In this document: positions 1,121-7,957 of the stretch, piece by piece | Layout: each line of letters opens with the position of its first letter | How positions within the stretch are numbered: position 1 is the stretch's first letter | From: Deltaproteobacteria bacterium | Lineage (GTDB): Bacteria; Desulfobacterota; Syntrophia; Syntrophales; UBA2210 | NCBI GenBank assembly: GCA_019314085.1 | Contig: JAFCZZ010000086.1 | Coordinates: 1 to 8,191 of the forward strand | Direction of reading: 5' to 3' | Length of the DNA: 8,191 nt | Program-made: the position numbers and the translations under genes | The notes under the pieces: model-generated | Database searches by the model: none | What the model saw: only the letters and a program-made list of their open reading frames with translations | What the model was told of the DNA's origin: nothing

Positions 1121-2632
1121 TCACTTTGGCAGTCTCGGCTTCCTTAGCTCGCTCAACCTCTCTGTAATCTCGTCCTTCTTCTTATATGCAATGATGCACG
1201 CCGCGATTGAGACTATCACAACGAAGAACAGCCACGGACCGATTGATGCACCCACACACGTCACCGTCTTGCTGGTGCCTGTGTAGTACCCGATTGGTCT
1301 TATAGACAGCGTGTATATTCCAGCATCTGACGGCACCTTCCAGACCCCCCTACCATCGCTCAGTGCTACGTCCACACCGAATCCAGTCACGGACTCCACC
1401 TCTATGGACCGTATCGCCCTTATCCTGTCTCCAGACGAGTCTATGACCTTCACGTATATCTCCTCGTTGGCTGTGACCGTGCTAACCTCGGTGCCTGTGC
1501 TCTGGCTGTATAGCACGATGGTTGGCGTCTCGCACACGACGACCTGGGTGCTACCGCTTGCGTAGTCCTTTTCGGCAGACACTGTGTACGTCCCAATCTG
1601 TGTTGGAACGAATGATACCGTCCCAGTCGATGCCGTCTCTGTCCTCTCAATCCCTGGTCCAGATATTACCACCTTGGAGCCGACTGGCACGCTGACGCTG
1701 ACCTCGCTGCCGACCAGCGGCTCAGTAGTCAGCACGCTGACAGAAAGCGGCTCTGTAGTAGCCTTGACCTCGCACTCAGCGGTCTTCTCACCGACAGTTA
1801 CAGAGAACTTCCACGGACCCACCTGGTCCAGTCTGACCGACACCTTTCCGTACCTATCAGTCGTGTCGTACGTCTTGGAGCCGTCTGGCTCTGTGATGCT
1901 TATCGTGCGGTACGAGAGCGGAGTGTCGCCCTGGTACAGCTTGACCGCCACCGTCGTTCCAGCTTGTGCTGACGAGGGCGCGTCGAAATTTGGCGCCTCG
2001 GACGTTGGCGCATAACCAGACGACTCTATCGTGAAGCTCTTGTATATAGGGTCAAACTCGTTTCCGACCACCCTGACCCACGCTGAACCACGCTCATCTA
2101 CACCCAGGCTTGCTGTTCCGAAACCATTCTCCATTTCAAACGTATAGATGTTCCCACTATCCGAGCAGAACAGGAACCCACTACCACTGAACAGTTTTAG
2201 GTTACCAGTCCCCTTTTCGAGCAGGTAGAAAGCGACATCCTTGCCAGCTACTGGTTTTGATGGTGACATCGCCAGCTCCAACCCGTACATTTCAGGTTTT
2301 ATCACTATTAGTTGACCAGCAGTCTTTCCATCGTACTCGTATGTCAGCACTCCTGTGGCACCATCTGTTATGACCAGACGGATATAGAAGTCGCTACCCA
2401 CCTCAGATACAATTGCGGGATAGTCCTTCAGTGTGTCATCCATAGACACCGTTGTATTCGCTATGTCGGTAGCACTAGCTACCTTGATATTCATCGTATC
2501 TCCAGGCTTCCCAGTTATTTCTACTAATGAATTTGTGAGTGTTACTGTTGGTGCACCTACTGCTGGAACAGCGGTTGCCAGAAGCATCGCTGAGACCAGC
2601 AGGATTAATACGATTTTTCCTTGCTTGTTCAT
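1121..2632 (-). CDS. Large Ig-like surface protein with signal peptide and C-terminal anchor, 503 aa
   Basis: The start is ATG 2632 with a GAAGGAA site upstream, 2 bases after the preceding stop. Residues 1-6 are basic, 7-22 hydrophobic, with likely signal cleavage near 24-27. The ectodomain is rich in Thr, Ser, Val and Gly and divides into roughly four to five beta-sandwich units (about 28-112, 115-203, 215-292, 295-368, 370-460). Several end with the Ig-like pattern G-x-[YW]-[TK]-[FLV]-[ST]-V (GPWKFSVTV, GTYTVSA, GIYTLSI). A transmembrane helix spans about 464-483 and a Lys/Arg-rich tail follows (YKKKDE), so the protein sits N-terminus out, C-terminus in. Cysteines are at 156, 287, 367, 459 and 479, and one NTT sequon lies at 59. 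Pleolipovirus spikes have the same overall topology, but S-layer or adhesin proteins do too. The role as spike or surface adhesin is inferred. Confidence 0.8.
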   Translation of the reverse strand: MNKQGKIVLILLVSAMLLATAVPAVGAPTVTLTNSLVEITGKPGDTMNIKVASATDIANTTVSMDDTLKDYPAIVSEVGSDFYIRLVITDGATGVLTYEYDGKTAGQLIVIKPEMYGLELAMSPSKPVAGKDVAFYLLEKGTGNLKLFSGSGFLFCSDSGNIYTFEMENGFGTASLGVDERGSAWVRVVGNEFDPIYKSFTIESSGYAPTSEAPNFDAPSSAQAGTTVAVKLYQGDTPLSYRTISITEPDGSKTYDTTDRYGKVSVRLDQVGPWKFSVTVGEKTAECEVKATTEPLSVSVLTTEPLVGSEVSVSVPVGSKVVISGPGIERTETASTGTVSFVPTQIGTYTVSAEKDYASGSTQVVVCETPTIVLYSQSTGTEVSTVTANEEIYVKVIDSSGDRIRAIRSIEVESVTGFGVDVALSDGRGVWKVPSDAGIYTLSIRPIGYYTGTSKTVTCVGASIGPWLFFVVIVSIAACIIAYKKKDEITERLSELRKPRLPK

Positions 2633-2634
2633 TT

Positions 2635-2841
2635 TTATTCCTTCTCAATTTTCTCGAATGCCCGCTCGACCACGAGCTTCCTTATTTTTATCGCGTCCTC
2701 ACCTGTTTCCTCGTAATCTATGAAGCACTTGTCAGCCTTGTCGTCGTAATATCCGCCTAGGAAATTGCACGTCCTTGGGTCTAACCCCTCCAGCGTCGCT
2801 ATTTTTGTCGCCTTCTCTCTTGACAGCGGTATCATTCCCAT
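2635..2841 (-). CDS. Two-cysteine microprotein C, 68 aa
   Basis: I choose ATG 2841, which has GAAGGAGG upstream. A TTG at 2850 is in frame but sits almost on that site. The preceding gene stops one base before this ATG (TAAaATG). The core is LEGLDPRTC, then NFLGGYYDDKADK, then C: Cys25 and Cys39, 14 apart, with a Gly-Gly pair five residues after the first cysteine. It aligns without gaps to the 69-residue protein just upstream over LEG[LI]DP-x-[TV]-C-x2-L-x-G-x-Y-D-D-x4-C. The C-terminus is a charged, probably helical tail (IRKLVVERAFEKIEKE). There is no signal peptide or CxxC. A single Cys pair suggests a disulfide-stapled hairpin or half of a metal site. Function is unknown. Confidence 0.78.
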   Translation of the reverse strand: MGMIPLSREKATKIATLEGLDPRTCNFLGGYYDDKADKCFIDYEETGEDAIKIRKLVVERAFEKIEKE

Positions 2842-2842
2842 T

Positions 2843-3052
2843 TTATTCAATCCTCCTTCTTCTAACTGGTCTCTCTACTGGCATGTGTTTCAGCTCTATC
2901 TGGTCTGGAGATACTTCCTTCTTCAACGTGGTGCACGTCCCAACATTATCGTCATAGTCTCCCTTCAGCTTCTCGCAGACCTCTGGGTCTATGCCCTCAA
3001 GGACCACTATCGATTCATCATCCTTTTTCCTATGCAGTGCTAATTTTGCCAT
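2843..3052 (-). CDS. Two-cysteine microprotein B, 69 aa
   Basis: ATG 3052 is chosen because GAGAGGTA lies 5 bases upstream. The frame is open further upstream, but that extension would overlap the real 54-residue gene in another frame. The protein has a basic N-terminus (MAKLALHRKK), then IVVLEGIDPEVC, EKLKGDYDDNVGT and the second Cys (Cys26 and Cys40). It closely matches the neighbouring downstream protein in the LEG-[IL]-DP...C...GxYDD...C core, so the two are paralogues. The tail has a MPVERPVRRRR segment, strongly basic, which could bind nucleic acid or be an assembly tail. Function is unknown. It is the middle member of three adjacent copies, probably created by tandem duplication. Confidence 0.78.
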   Translation of the reverse strand: MAKLALHRKKDDESIVVLEGIDPEVCEKLKGDYDDNVGTCTTLKKEVSPDQIELKHMPVERPVRRRRIE

Positions 3053-3056
3053 GATT

Positions 3057-3221
3057 CTACCTCTCTGGTTTTGTGACCTTGAGCTTGACTGAGTTCGGAT
3101 TCGCGTCATCTTCGACCAGCGTGACCAGACAGTTACCAGTCTTGTCTGGCGTTCCTAGCAGTCTCTTGCATGTTATCGGGTCCAGCGGTCCCAAGTTCAC
3201 AAATTTTTCTACTACTCCCAT
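3057..3221 (-). CDS. Two-cysteine microprotein A, 54 aa
   Basis: A short gene supported by context: GGAGGT lies 4 bases before ATG 3221, the upstream gene stops one base before that ATG, and the next ribosome-binding site begins at its own stop codon. The protein starts MGVVEKFVNLGPLDPITC, continues KRLLGTPDKTGN, and has the second Cys at 31 (Cys18 and Cys31, 13 apart). The pattern L-x-[GP]-[LI]-DP-x-[TV]-C-x2-L-x-G matches the next two genes, making this the shortest and most divergent of the tandem trio. After the second Cys come a beta-like LVTLVEDD and a basic end (VKLKVTKPER). Its frame uses AGA, AGG and CTG-type codons like its neighbours. Function is unknown. Confidence 0.75.
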   Translation of the reverse strand: MGVVEKFVNLGPLDPITCKRLLGTPDKTGNCLVTLVEDDANPNSVKLKVTKPER

Positions 3222-3222
3222 G

Positions 3223-3945
3223 TCAACCTCCATACGGTTCTATATGTCTTTTAACACTATAATGCTCTGGGTCAACCCTTTCAAGATACCCCTTCTCAAG
3301 CATGGCACCAATATATTCCCTGAGCTCGCTAACGCTCTCAACCCACCCAATCTTTTCAATCATGTACTTCATAAGCCTATCTGTAGTTACCTTGCCGTTG
3401 TGTTCGGTGAACTCCCATATTTCTAGCATAATTGGGTTATAGCCAACCCTCAGAGGGATTAGGCTGTTCCCAGTTGGTATCTCCCTGCCGACCTTGTACT
3501 CGTCTCCAGACATTAGAAGGAACGTGTTCCTGTGCATGTCCTTTACTATGTACTCTACAAACAACCTTGACTCCCTAGTGTTCGGCAGGTGCCTGCCATC
3601 CAGTATAACGTAGTCACAAATCTCTGACATTGAAGCGTACCTAACCGAGTGCACGAACCCACCGATTATCTGCTTGAACGGGCTCTGCCCGTCCGCCAGA
3701 TATCCTTTTGGCACGGACTTCTCTATTGAAATGGCTCTCCATCTGGCGTGGAGGATATCTGGCTCCATGACTTCTCTAGGAAGCTCGACATCGTACAGCC
3801 CAAGAGCCGCGTTCGTGACTGGGATTATCTCCTTCAGGATGCCCCCCCTGAACCTGTGTATCTCTGCGTTCTCGTGCGTTGCTTTCTTTTTCAAATCTTC
3901 AATCCCATATCCAGGCCTTGGAACGAGCACGTTTACGTACGTCAC
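3223..3945 (-). CDS. Unknown protein with C-terminal winged helix, 240 aa
   Basis: GTG 3945 is the start. It overlaps the previous stop as GTGA and is preceded by GAAGGTGG. I do not recognise residues 1-165, which mix strands and helices with a few conserved-looking spots (LVPRPGYGIEDLKKK, RFRGGILKE, DYVILDGRHLPNTRESRLF). Residues about 170-232 read as a winged helix: helix 1 (PIMLEIWEFTEHNG), helix 2 (TTDRLMKYMIEKI), recognition helix (SVSELREYIGAMLEKGYL) and wing (ERVDPEHYSV). The N-terminal part could be an enzymatic, partner-binding or oligomerisation domain. The last codons (PYGG) also hold the ribosome-binding site of the 54-residue gene. The role is inferred to be DNA-binding; the N-terminal domain is unassigned. 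Confidence 0.75.
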   Translation of the reverse strand: MTYVNVLVPRPGYGIEDLKKKATHENAEIHRFRGGILKEIIPVTNAALGLYDVELPREVMEPDILHARWRAISIEKSVPKGYLADGQSPFKQIIGGFVHSVRYASMSEICDYVILDGRHLPNTRESRLFVEYIVKDMHRNTFLLMSGDEYKVGREIPTGNSLIPLRVGYNPIMLEIWEFTEHNGKVTTDRLMKYMIEKIGWVESVSELREYIGAMLEKGYLERVDPEHYSVKRHIEPYGG

Positions 3946-4274
3946 GATACCACCTTCAAAAACTTATCTATCTGCTTTTTTGTGTTATCCATCTCGGCTT
4001 TAATCTTCTCCGTGACCTCCTTTTTGACCTTCTCGATGACGAAGACGTGGTTTGGCAGGAACTTAACCAGTGGCGTCACATCCCTGCCGAACTGGCTGTT
4101 TGTGAAGTTTTTCCACCATGTGTATTCTGCCCCCCTGTCCACGTCGACATCTATGACCCTCAGGTTTATCTTGCCGATGTATGCAAGGGGCTCCATCACG
4201 GTTACCTCGAACCGCTCGCAGACTGGGCACTCGTACTCAACGAACAGAATAGCCTCTGGCGTATTGTGGTTCAT
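3942..4274 (-). CDS. Thioredoxin-fold protein with CPVC site, 110 aa
   Basis: ATG 4274 overlaps the previous stop (ATGA), with GGAGGGG just upstream. Residues 7-12 form the first strand (EAILFVEY), then E-C-P-V-C at 15-19 begins the active-site helix. RVIDVDVD at 39-46 is the next strand, and V-T-P-L-V-K-F at 66-72 carries the expected cis-proline (Pro68). A long charged helix ends the protein (about 81-108). The length and order match a minimal thioredoxin/glutaredoxin fold. Pro at the first x position of CxxC, with no leader sequence, suggests a cytosolic glutaredoxin-like or disulfide-handling protein. Redox activity is likely from the two cysteines. The substrate is not shown, though three two-cysteine proteins are encoded downstream in the same operon. 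Confidence 0.8.
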   Translation of the reverse strand: MNHNTPEAILFVEYECPVCERFEVTVMEPLAYIGKINLRVIDVDVDRGAEYTWWKNFTNSQFGRDVTPLVKFLPNHVFVIEKVKKEVTEKIKAEMDNTKKQIDKFLKVVS

Positions 4275-5140
4275 GTCCCCTCCACCGTAATTTCTGGTTT
4301 CCCTTCCGTTTTTCCTTTTTGGGTTAATTCAGCGATTTTGCCCTCAAGTTCCTTGACCTTGTTCCTGAGGTCGACATCGGTACTAGTTGCACCAGGTGAC
4401 ATTGTGCCAAGTGTTTCTGTCAGCTCTTTCCCCTTCTCGGCCAATTCCATCAATTTATCCATGTCAGTTATTCCAGCGAACTCACCCGTCTTCCAAGCTT
4501 CTTTTATTTCTTCCGAGGTTTTTCCCTTAAATATCAGTTCCATCACCCTTAGCGAGTCCCTGTCAACCTCGGCCTGCTTTCTCCTCCTCCTCTCGTCGAT
4601 TAGGTCTTTCTGGAGCTTCTCGTTCTCGTACACAAGAGACCTGTGGTCGCTCTTGACGGCTTCAGCTTCCCTCTCGTATTTATCCTTTAGACGACTTTGC
4701 TCGTCAAGCCTTGAACTAAGCTCAGAGATGACCCTGTTCTTTTTCGAGATTTCGTCCTCCAGCTCCTTCAGCTCCTCTGACCGCTTAGGAGGCAGCAACC
4801 AGACGAAGCCCTTGTCCTCAAGGTCGAATGCAGACCTAGCCGTCAGGATAAAGGATTTGTTCTGGAAGATGGTACAGTCCTTCAAACGACCATCTGCCTT
4901 ATCGTAGTAATCCAAGAACTCCTTCTGCACGCCGTTTAATGTTACAACTGTTGCCAGCTTCCTGTATTCATCCACCATACCGCTCTCATAGTGAGCCTCG
5001 ACATCCGTGACGATTCCAGCAAGCTCATTCGTGGTTCTAATCAGCAACTTCATCCCCTGCTGTGGCATCCACTTGTCAATCGTTTTCAGTATCTCCTTGG
5101 CCCACAACTCTCTTTGATTTATTTTAATACCCCCAGACAC
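4271..5140 (-). CDS. Coiled-coil protein, 289 aa
   Basis: The start is GTG 5140, sharing its G with the TAG of the upstream gene (TAGTG). AAGGAG lies immediately upstream, an unusually short spacing, and no ATG occurs before codon 30. Residues 1-118 form a compact mixed domain containing a single cysteine (Cys89) and ending FVWLLPPKR. From about 120 to 200 the sequence is a strongly heptad-like, charged coiled coil (ELKELEDEISKKNRVISEL, then KLQKDLIDERRRRK). A helical linker and a second short coil at about 256-274 follow (LRNKVKELEGKIAELTQ). I recognise no family. Such proteins often act as scaffolds or structural parts, and the position next to the thioredoxin-like gene fits an assembly or structural role only loosely. 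Confidence 0.78.
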   Translation of the reverse strand: MSGGIKINQRELWAKEILKTIDKWMPQQGMKLLIRTTNELAGIVTDVEAHYESGMVDEYRKLATVVTLNGVQKEFLDYYDKADGRLKDCTIFQNKSFILTARSAFDLEDKGFVWLLPPKRSEELKELEDEISKKNRVISELSSRLDEQSRLKDKYEREAEAVKSDHRSLVYENEKLQKDLIDERRRRKQAEVDRDSLRVMELIFKGKTSEEIKEAWKTGEFAGITDMDKLMELAEKGKELTETLGTMSPGATSTDVDLRNKVKELEGKIAELTQKGKTEGKPEITVEGT

Positions 5141-5823: not shown

Positions 5824-6108
5824 ATGGGAATAGTATACGACCCCGACCTAGCCAAGGCTACAAACTGCCACTGCTACGCATACGACGGAAAGGACATCTG
5901 CTGGAGCAGCGGCATAATAGGTACACTGAGTGCCGCACAGGAAGAGATATACTGCAACCCAAAGACCATCATGGGTCCAGTCCCGCCGAAGATGGAGGCG
6001 AGGTACAGCGGTTTCGTAGAAGCGGTCCGCATCTGCGAGAACCTGCCGAAGGGCGAGTTCTGGAGTTGTATGGGCCGCGAGCTTGAAAAGCGGGGCATCG
6101 AAGTATAA
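5824..6108 (+). CDS. Six-cysteine small protein, 94 aa
   Basis: The frame runs from ATG 5824 to TAA 6108 with archaeal-type codons. The 23-base gap before it has no clear ribosome-binding site, so the start is less certain than for its neighbours. Cysteines are at 15, 17, 26, 44, 71 and 82. The N-terminal part is NCHCYAYDGKDICWSSG, with CxC followed by a Cys nine residues later. The C-terminal part is RICENLPKGEFWSCMGREL, in which C-x2-L-x2-G-x-F-x2-C is reminiscent of the two-cysteine core with a shorter loop. Six cysteines in 94 residues suggest metal binding or several disulfides. There is no signal peptide, so metal binding or a disulfide-rich virion protein are both possible. The family is not recognised. 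Confidence 0.72.
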   Translation: MGIVYDPDLAKATNCHCYAYDGKDICWSSGIIGTLSAAQEEIYCNPKTIMGPVPPKMEARYSGFVEAVRICENLPKGEFWSCMGRELEKRGIEV

Positions 6109-6173: not shown

Positions 6174-6431
6174 ATGGGACAACTCAATGGAAATAAAGTA
6201 TCGTTGGATGTCAGAACCTGCGGAGAAATCGGAGGCAGGTGGCTGTACAAGACGAATGAGTGTCTCATAAATTCAAGGTCGCTGCCGTTCTACGTCGGCG
6301 ACTTCGTTTCTTTTTATCCAATAGGGCAGGAAAAGCCCATTACCGTGCACAGTGATGTTTTTGATGATATCAGCACCGAGGGGGCACGTTTCCACCAGTT
6401 TTACACTTTTATAGTCAAGGGGGAAGGGTGA
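6174..6431 (+). CDS. Two-cysteine microprotein with GG core, 85 aa
   Basis: ATG 6174 lies 9 bases after CGGAG and gives a Met-Gly start like many neighbours. ATG 6168, two codons earlier, is also possible (spacing 3). The N-terminal third holds the family core: SLDVRTC, then GEIGGRWLYKTNE, then CLIN (Cys16 and Cys30, 14 apart), nearly identical in layout to the 68-residue - strand protein (C-NFLGGYYDDKADK-C). The rest (PFYVGDFVSFYPIG onward) is beta-rich with aromatic residues and ends FIVKGEG. This is a single-Cys-hairpin domain fused to a second small beta domain. Function is unknown. Codons are more mixed than in the first two genes of the operon. Confidence 0.75.
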   Translation: MGQLNGNKVSLDVRTCGEIGGRWLYKTNECLINSRSLPFYVGDFVSFYPIGQEKPITVHSDVFDDISTEGARFHQFYTFIVKGEG

Positions 6432-6440
6432 TTTAAATGG
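6422..6440 (+). repeat. 19-bp direct repeat over a translation start, copy 1
   Basis: ggaagggtgatttaaatgg covers the stop codon of the 85-residue gene, a GGTGAT ribosome-binding site (complementary to the 16S 3' end) and the ATG of the next gene. An exact second copy is at 6776-6794. Confidence 0.85.
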
Positions 6441-6715: not shown

Positions 6716-6790
6716 GGCGTTATTATATAGTGACATATGCGATGCATCTATAAAACTTAATAAGGGCGGTATGGAGGAAGGGTGATTTAA
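6716..6790 (+). promoter_or_regulatory. Internal promoter-like gap
   Basis: The only sizeable gap inside the + operon. A TATA-like element (ctataaaactt, 6748-6758) lies about 25 bases before 6775, giving a very short leader that starts at the GGAAGGGTGAT ribosome-binding site. A tiny in-frame remnant, Met-Glu-Glu-Gly-stop at 6771-6785, matches the gene end found in the other repeat copy (Gly-Glu-Gly-stop). Confidence 0.45.
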
Positions 6791-6794
6791 ATGG
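6776..6794 (+). repeat. 19-bp direct repeat over a translation start, copy 2
   Basis: Exact copy of 6422-6440, here serving the start of the 77-residue gene. The TGA inside it no longer ends a real upstream gene, which suggests copy 2 is a duplicated gene junction. Confidence 0.85.
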
Positions 6795-7197: not shown

Positions 7198-7461
7198 ATG
7201 GGCAAGATGGGCGGCACGCCAAAGACGTACAAAGGCGTAAAGTACGTTTCGGCACGCTGGAAGGAGGACAAGTGGAACGTCGAGCTGACTAATACTGGCA
7301 GGGTAAGAACTACAGCCGACAAGATATACTCAAGTGCTGGAGTCATCGATGCCAGGGAAGGCGAGATTCACATATCGTTGCCGCTTGGGGCTACGTGCGA
7401 AAGAGTCATGGTAGCAGGTAGGAGACACATCAACTGCTGGAAGGAAAAGGAGGAGACATGA
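7198..7461 (+). CDS. Small beta-rich two-cysteine protein, 87 aa
   Basis: ATG 7198 follows GGGGGA by six bases and the preceding stop by two. Residues 11-65 are basic and beta-like (YKGVKYVSARWKEDKWNVEL, then RVRTTADKIY, EGEIHISLPL). The end is GATC, ERVMVAGRRHIN, CWKEKEET (Cys67 and Cys80, 13 apart). Here the cysteine hairpin sits at the C-terminus instead of the N-terminus. No known domain is seen; a small SH3- or OB-like barrel is conceivable for the first part. The last codons (KEKEET) contain the GGAGGAG site of the next gene and are duplicated 219 bases downstream. Function is unknown. Confidence 0.72.
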   Translation: MGKMGGTPKTYKGVKYVSARWKEDKWNVELTNTGRVRTTADKIYSSAGVIDAREGEIHISLPLGATCERVMVAGRRHINCWKEKEET

Positions 7462-7475
7462 CCGCTGAAAAAGAG
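7445..7475 (+). repeat. 31-bp direct repeat, copy 1
   Basis: Matches 7664-7694 at 30 of 31 positions. It covers the C-terminal KEET codons of one gene, the GGAGGAG site, the ATGA overlap and the first six codons of the next gene (MT-[AV]-EKE). Confidence 0.85.
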
Positions 7476-7637
7476 CAGAGGTTGACGGACGCTCAACTCA
7501 TTGCTGTGGTTTTGATTATCTTTGGCATAAGTGCCATTTTTGGTACTGTGTTAAATATGCCGATTCCAGCCCTTGTTCTTGCTGGTATTGGTGTTTTAAT
7601 TCTGATATATTTTAGAGCATTTGAGTTGGAGGGATGA
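7458..7637 (+). CDS. Two-helix membrane protein, 59 aa
   Basis: ATG 7458 overlaps the preceding stop (ATGA) and is preceded by GGAGGAG. After a charged head (MTAEKEQRLTDAQ), residues about 14-33 (LIAVVLIIFGISAIFGTVLN) and 36-53 (IPALVLAGIGVLILIYF) are two transmembrane helices joined by a very short Met-Pro turn, so both ends lie on one side. The tail is RAFELEG. It has no cysteine, unlike nearly all its neighbours. It uses many T-ending and TTG codons (GTT, ATT, GCT, TTG), giving a more AT-rich frame than adjacent genes. This may reflect hydrophobic content or separate origin. It could be a virion membrane protein, a holin-like protein or a small membrane partner of the surface protein; none can be preferred. 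Confidence 0.78.
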   Translation: MTAEKEQRLTDAQLIAVVLIIFGISAIFGTVLNMPIPALVLAGIGVLILIYFRAFELEG

Positions 7638-7657
7638 CATGGGAGTGATAGCACCAG
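7633..7657 (+). repeat. 25-bp direct repeat, copy 1
   Basis: Matches 7933-7957 at 23 of 25 positions. It covers a gene-end TGA and the first six codons of a gene starting MGV-[IM]-AP. Confidence 0.85.
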
Positions 7658-7680
7658 GCGTAAAAAAGGAGGAGACATGA
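7639..7680 (+). pseudogene. Chimeric 13-codon remnant between two small genes
   Basis: ATG 7639 to TGA 7678-7680 encodes MGVIAPGVKKEET. Its head copies the start of the gene at 7939 (MGVMAPE) and its tail copies the end of the 87-residue gene (KEKEET), so it looks like a small gene that lost its body by deletion or recombination. It still carries GGAGGAG for the next gene and overlaps its ATG, so it may persist as a translational coupler or leader peptide. Confidence 0.6.
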
Positions 7681-7694
7681 CCGTTGAAAAAGAG
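7664..7694 (+). repeat. 31-bp direct repeat, copy 2
   Basis: Second copy of 7445-7475, offset by 219 bases. It includes the tail of the chimeric remnant and the start of the 85-residue gene at 7677. Confidence 0.85.
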
Positions 7695-7934
7695 GAAATC
7701 ATCGAGGGCAAGTTCCTCAGGTGCTTCCGAGAACACCCTATGGCTACGATGACTCACATGATAGTCAAGACCGATGGCGACAAGATGATATTCTCAGGGG
7801 ATTGGAGGCCCATGAGAAGCATATGCGACGCTCTGGACGAGGGCGACTTTCTCAGGATAAGATACAGGCAACCTTGGGACTGGACGGTTGAAAAGCTCAA
7901 GGAGCCGATGCCTAGGTTCGAGAGATGGTGGTGA
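7677..7934 (+). CDS. Small beta-rich protein, possible OB-fold, 85 aa
   Basis: ATG 7677 has GGAGGAG upstream and an ATGA overlap with the remnant before it. The order strand (IEGKFLRCF), strand (HMIVKTDG), strand (KMIFSGD), helix (RPMRSICDAL), strand (GDFLRIRYRQ), strand (DWTVEKLKE) fits a five-stranded barrel of OB type. The EGD-[FY]-[LV]-x-[IV]-x-Y turn is typical of small nucleic-acid-binding OB proteins. The C-terminus is aromatic and basic (PRFERWW), as in some single-stranded DNA-binding proteins that recruit partners by an aromatic tip. This is judged by eye and is tentative. Its first six codons were copied from, or to, the membrane-protein gene at 7458. Confidence 0.72.
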   Translation: MTVEKEEIIEGKFLRCFREHPMATMTHMIVKTDGDKMIFSGDWRPMRSICDALDEGDFLRIRYRQPWDWTVEKLKEPMPRFERWW

Positions 7935-7957
7935 TGACATGGGAGTAATGGCACCAG
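7933..7957 (+). repeat. 25-bp direct repeat, copy 2
   Basis: Second copy of 7633-7657, offset by exactly 300 bases, at the start of the last gene. Confidence 0.85.

Follow-up and report, generated by a model that had tools for sequence, protein, structure and literature searches.

A tandem trio of paralogous two-cysteine microproteins in a window rich in two-cysteine small proteins

In viruses of hyperthermophilic archaea, STIV and SSV1 among them, small intracellular proteins are said to be stabilised by disulfides (Menon et al. 2008 and Larson et al. 2007, as cited in PMC3177088 and PMC4187194). In the passages of the literature drawn on here, an even-cysteine excess points to disulfides forming inside the cells of thermophilic archaea, and the viruses of these archaea were examined too (PMC3177088; on cysteine parity as such a sign in these archaea see also PMC4187194). 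The same passages report that most of the examined viruses of disulfide-rich thermophiles appear to encode disulfide proteins, assign SSV1 f = 1, i.e. full disulfide use, with a host group called disulfide-rich, and exclude the methanogens from the disulfide-using thermophilic Euryarchaea (PMC3177088). That a thermophile's mobile element encodes small orphan proteins with disulfides is nothing new in kind; the new parts of the present locus are a narrow paralogous family and a pattern of exactly two cysteines.

We analysed a stretch of 8,191 nucleotides, here called the window, in which three small genes, A, B and C, lie in tandem. Like the small intracellular disulfide proteins of STIV and SSV1, their products are small and, judged by eye, have no signal peptides, and their cysteine numbers are even, as in STIV. 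However, exactly two cysteines are found in 13 of the 17 small proteins here, as against 5/23 in STIV and 1/17 in SSV1. The locus also recalls the archaeal protein disulfide oxidoreductase (PDO) system in that a CPxC-containing, weakly thioredoxin-like protein, T110, is encoded beside two-cysteine small proteins, but T110 has 110 residues with one CxxC, and its thioredoxin fold and activity are putative.

The trio and its relatives

The three adjacent minus-strand reading frames of 54, 69 and 68 amino acids described by the first-pass annotation are present where it had placed them:

3057..3221, minus strand: gene A, 54 aa, with Cys18 (3168-3170) and Cys31 (3129-3131); orthologues P0004 and P0005
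2843..3052, minus strand: gene B, 69 aa, with Cys26 and Cys40 and a basic RRRR near the C-terminus; orthologue P0003
2635..2841, minus strand: gene C, 68 aa, with Cys25 and Cys39 in the C-x3-GG form; orthologue P0002

On the minus strand the gene order is U240 - A - B - C - S503 with intergenic gaps of 1, 4, 1 and 2 nt; the ATGs of A, B and C are each preceded by a purine-rich stretch, and GGAGG stands ahead of A and C. The motif that had been quoted for the trio, L-x-[GP]-[LI]-D-P-x-[TV]-C-x2-L-x-G-x-x-D-x(4,5)-C, is exact in all three proteins, and the cysteine spacing, given as 13-14, measures 13 in A and 14 in both B and C. Two further remarks needed narrowing: the Cys-x3-GG start is, within the trio, exact in gene C only, and the basic RRRR tail does occur in gene B, where it is followed by I-E and so lies near, not at, the end. 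The conserved region runs beyond the cysteines to an E-R common to A, B and C, of which the late E alone stays invariant when the orthologues are added. Since L, D, P, C, L, G, D, C and this late E, plus the start M, are invariant in the resulting seven-row alignment, conservation extends over about 50 residues, a longer unit than the core reported earlier.

Short ORFs with cysteines can look alike, and three unrelated small ORFs might have come to carry a short motif by chance. This explanation, to which we assign a practically negligible probability, is refuted by the local alignments, in which the pairs score 100 (B-C), 66 (A-B) and 50 (A-C) while shuffled sequences average 21-24, none of 300 shuffles reaching any pair score, and by the orthologues, which keep both motif and cysteines. 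The two cysteines are invariant in 9/9 aligned sequences, gene E (see below) and its orthologue among them. Judged by these alignments and by the close orthologues that exist for all three, A, B and C are, as had been claimed, paralogous and one protein family.

Searching proteins with the trio profile, we obtained scores for 10 candidates; the five listed were gene B of the window and P0002, P0003, P0004 and P0005. These last four are encoded on JGI metagenome contigs and are orthologues of C (P0002), B (P0003) and A (P0004 and P0005); P0003 is identical to gene B at 61 of 69 residues and P0002 is 94% identical to gene C, and the longest contig is 3,170 bp for P0002, P0003 and P0005 each and 72,451 bp for P0004. 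When consensus-like probes were used, 68 candidates were obtained, and P0002, P0004, P0005 and P0006 alone passed E 10. Counting as a curated-family match one at or above the curated cut-off or with E at most 0.001, we found none for A, B or C in Pfam, NCBIfam and PHROGs at E 0.001, nor any in PADLOC at E 0.1, the best being that of gene B to Pfam HPIP_like (E 0.03, below cut-off). Contig scans with the trio family and with the neighbouring proteins gave no true relative, the sole match, L001, being taken as chance, and gene C had no tblastn match in a phage collection including SSV1 and STIV. A word-based search can miss distant relatives, and these results therefore indicate that the family is narrowly spread in the databases searched, which does not make it absent from nature. 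The earlier statement that no named family has this arrangement thus holds within Pfam, NCBIfam, PHROGs, PADLOC and the protein and contig searches. On this sequence comparison the trio family is an orphan with a narrow distribution in the searched databases.

The two structure models are of low confidence (mean pLDDT 59.8 and 71.6); in each, a helix holds the first cysteine and a strand the second, and they suggest a small beta-alpha-beta-beta fold, for which a structure search with the models of genes A and C returned no significant match. DUF5710, known from plasmid and phage proteins, names 5 of the 50 viral-structure matches listed for the gene C model (E 2.4-6.1) and is absent among the 50 listed for the gene A model. 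Its order of strand, helix, L-G-x-[WY]-D and hairpin, a motif seen in nine sequences, resembles the trio, whereas the nine sequences read have no cysteine pair; the fold comparison is one of low-confidence models with structure-match E values of 2.4 and above. A sequence relationship to DUF5710 was not supported, the profile comparison score of 8.8 being matched or beaten by 37/200 column shuffles. The DUF333 lipoproteins, such as E. coli YoaF, have in common with the trio an Asn-Pro or Asp-Pro just before the cysteine, the C-x3-GG and a second cysteine. However, YoaF is annotated as a lipoprotein while the translations of A, B and C, read by eye, contain no hydrophobic signal-like N-terminus, and alignment to YoaF, the one sequence compared, was equalled by 292 (C), 860 (B), 462 (A) and 473 (E) of 1000 shuffles, so that the suggested resemblance to small secreted cysteine proteins was not borne out.

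Further candidates for membership, and one more two-cysteine protein, are encoded on the opposite strand:

6174..6431, plus strand: gene E, 85 aa, fourth family member (LDVRTCGEIGGRW...C), with Cys16 and Cys30; orthologue P0006
6437..6715, plus strand: gene F, 92 aa, probable fifth member by its profile score against shuffles (VCKRLGGEF...C), cysteines 18 apart
7198..7461, plus strand: gene J, a two-cysteine small protein by cysteine count (T-C-x12-C)

Gene E scores 13.8 bits against the trio-core profile, a value reached by none of 2000 shuffles with the cysteines fixed, and its local alignment score with gene C was reached by 0/300; by these comparisons it is clearly a family member, on the opposite strand from the trio. 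The profile was also run on 13 window proteins besides E, each with 2000 cysteine-fixed shuffles. Gene F, which itself reads T-E-D-V-C at the core, was equalled by 14/2000 shuffles with the trio profile and by 1/2000 once E and P0006 were included, and it is graded a probable fifth member to allow for the number of tests. For the other proteins the trio-core profile gave 30/2000 (H), 117 (R68), 194 (G) and at least 236 (remainder), and the extended profile 0/2000 for H, 55 for G and at least 260 for the ten others besides F, G and H; the score of gene J did not rise above shuffles with this extended profile (299/2000). Gene G, its score equalled by 194 and then 55 of 2000 shuffles, is not claimed as a member, nor is gene H, in which the G and a near second cysteine are missing and which was not counted because it has the D-V-R-T-C half alone in common. 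A core D-x-x-[TV]-C-x2-[LI]-x-G...C scoring above shuffles was found in A, B, C, E and F, which points to a family of at least four members in the window. The description as a trio is therefore right in that the three genes are related and too narrow in that E is a further member on the other strand.

Gene neighbours and cysteine counts

The trio is flanked on its own strand by four larger genes:

4271..5140, minus strand: K289, coiled-coil-rich, preceding T110 in the gene run
3942..4274, minus strand: T110, 110 aa with C-P-V-C, weakly thioredoxin/glutaredoxin-like, in the trio's gene run as the second gene upstream of A
3223..3945, minus strand: U240, directly upstream of A with a 1-nt gap; no significant family match
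1121..2632, minus strand: S503, the next gene after C; read by eye, its N-terminus resembles a signal sequence, and it has a membrane segment at the C-terminal end as well as a basic tail

T110 matches Pfam PF05768 (E 3e-4) and PF13462 (0.008) and NCBIfam TIGR00411 (0.012), all below the curated cut-offs, and phmmer against the sequences of solved structures returned no thioredoxin; we consider it a candidate, putative oxidase or isomerase. S503, which has five cysteines, matches Pfam PF13620 (8e-5) and PF10670 (8e-4), both below cut-offs, its sub-threshold similarity including a carboxypeptidase-regulatory-like match, and had no relatives in phages or viral contigs. The sub-threshold matches of K289, mostly within residues 97-283 (Pfam KIF21A_4th, 8e-4; PADLOC LmuB, 4e-4), are read as coiled-coil similarity. 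No window protein that was scanned could be recognised as the product of a hallmark gene (capsid, portal, terminase or other).

Cysteines were counted in 20 genes hand-picked from the ORF list, X78 and Y116 at the left being less certain and N being cut by the window end. Of 17 small proteins (at most 120 aa), two have one cysteine, one has none, one has six and 13 have exactly two, as against 4.5 expected from random placement of the same 34 cysteines (p 3e-5), a raw count inflated by the common ancestry of the trio, E and F. Without X78 and N the share is 11/15 (4.0 expected, p 2e-4), and with the trio and E additionally taken as one it is 8/12 (3.2 expected, p 0.004); among spurious ORFs of 50-120 aa it is 6/36. 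The cysteines are 11-18 residues apart, a range chosen after seeing the data, in 8 of the 13 two-cysteine proteins (2.2 expected, p 5e-4), in 5/10 without B, C and E (p 0.016) and in 4/9 when A is also removed (p 0.04). T, S or V stands just before the first cysteine in 9/13, or 6/10 without B, C and E. The window thus holds an excess of two-cysteine small proteins, the pattern having been found and tested post hoc on the same data.

In the comparison genomes, exactly two cysteines occur in 1/17 (SSV1), 5/23 (STIV), 0/8 (psiM2) and 1/19 (T7) of the annotated genes of 50-120 aa, none above expectation. Those lists omit one gene of SSV1, one of STIV and ten of T7, which lay at the record start, were spliced, too short or nested, or had an alternative start; five of these in the size range have 0 (SSV1), 0 (STIV) and 2, 5 and 1 (T7) cysteines, giving 2/22 for T7 and leaving the comparison as it was, and one spliced T7 gene within the size range stands outside this recount. 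Nonzero-even and odd counts are in the ratio 14:2 in the window, compared with 1:6 in SSV1, 9:2 in STIV, 1:3 in psiM2 and 1:11 in T7. Hence the even-cysteine excess of thermophile-virus disulfide proteins is seen here, post hoc, and not in SSV1, and because SSV1 is placed at f = 1 while its small genes are 1:6 even to odd, parity is suggestive only and no simple readout.

Codon use in 18 genes (AGG and AGA for 97/128 Arg, ATA for 78/159 Ile) and a TATA-like box upstream of gene G suit a thermophile, probably an archaeon. Such codon use is also compatible with some thermophilic bacteria, and an archaeal origin is plausible. A methanogen host would weaken a disulfide reading, since methanogens stand outside the disulfide-using group in the passages drawn on (PMC3177088).

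Proposed role and alternatives

With confidence slightly above even, we propose that the trio are disulfide-stapled cytoplasmic microproteins, tandem duplicates on the virus or plasmid of a thermophile, probably archaeal, with an adaptor-like role. A, B and C would be tandem copies, since diverged, of one small cytoplasmic protein, lying in a tightly packed run of genes on a thermophile's mobile element, either a virus or a plasmid. Their core of about 50 residues would consist of a strand, a short helix and a beta hairpin, and an intramolecular disulfide between the helix cysteine and the cysteine at the start of the long hairpin strand would staple this mini-domain and keep a 50-residue protein from unfolding in the heat. 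Through its variable N- and C-terminal tails each copy would bind a partner of its own, so that the copies would be small binding or assembly adaptors, not enzymes, and T110 could make or repair the bond. We favour disulfide-stapled microproteins because the even-cysteine excess is a published sign and a CPVC protein lies in the same run; we infer the adaptor role from the divergent tails, the tandem copies and the lack of an enzyme-like residue set, just as we infer the disulfide state, the thermophily, the mobile-element nature, co-transcription and the part of T110.

A hetero-oligomer would also be in keeping with three neighbouring copies that each have two invariant cysteines, and the microproteins might bind metal: the four cysteines that hold zinc or an iron-sulfur cluster would come from a dimer, or from a heterodimer of two copies, and there would be tandem copies because they pair with one another; the HPIP_like match of gene B is to a high-potential iron-sulfur-like model, albeit at chance level. 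We think this unlikely, as the cysteines, 13-14 apart, form no C-x2-C or C-x4-C knuckles, the alignment has no conserved histidine, and the exactly-two pattern reaches small proteins of the window beyond the demonstrated relatives. The CPVC of T110 in the same gene run would also fit a trio of redox-active substrates or partners of T110, in a thiol relay or redox switch instead of a structural staple; with the family matches of T110 below cut-offs and no CxxC in the trio, we hold this to be quite improbable. The single-strand order K289-T110-U240-A-B-C-S503, with 1-4 nt gaps around the trio, and the by-eye resemblance of S503 to a membrane-anchored surface protein would fit minor proteins of virion or surface assembly, co-made with S503 and K289, whose cysteines cross-link subunits. 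This proposal is doubtful in our view, for no hallmark gene was recognised among the scanned window proteins and the trio matches no structural family.

A wider form of the disulfide-staple proposal, which we offer as speculation with little weight, is that the window holds 'one-staple' microproteins of 50-120 aa, each with exactly one disulfide, which form a scattered and rapidly evolving superfamily, spread by repeated duplication over both divergent gene runs and served by the element's own thioredoxin-like oxidase, a minimal scaffold diversified in the manner of venoms or defensins but within a prokaryotic cell; the bond would close a loop of 11-22 residues in 9/13 two-cysteine proteins. 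If the staple is true, the element would amount to a naturally occurring collection of tiny intracellular proteins, each held by a single bond, with which one could study the heat resistance of the smallest folds and the origin of viral orphan genes through duplication. The exactly-two pattern, moreover, can be checked cheaply from sequence and could point to elements of this type, with a hint of their redox environment, in metagenomes where hardly any gene's function is recognisable.

Other features of the window

Gene D (5824-6108, plus strand, 94 aa) has six cysteines, including C-E-N-L-P-K-G-E-F-W-S-C, and had no significant family match and no relative on viral contigs. At the left edge a plus-strand frame enters the window and stops at 265 (1-265), by eye the tail of a winged-helix-like protein.

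Near-identical stretches of 20-31 nt recur in the window, pairing 7445-7475 with 7664-7694 (97%), 7633-7657 with 7933-7957 (92%), 6419-6440 with 6773-6794 (95%) and, inverted, 3209-3228 with 7632-7651 (85%). They comprise a ribosome-binding site and start codon, plus the first codons in three of the four pairs, and the small genes downstream otherwise differ, as if start cassettes had been copied between genes. A further likeness of 21 nt (76%) links 3265-3285, encoding the C-terminal end of U240 (L-E-R-V-D-P-E), to 2981-3001 in the core of gene B (L-E-G-I-D-P-E), and may be chance or a trace of the core's source.
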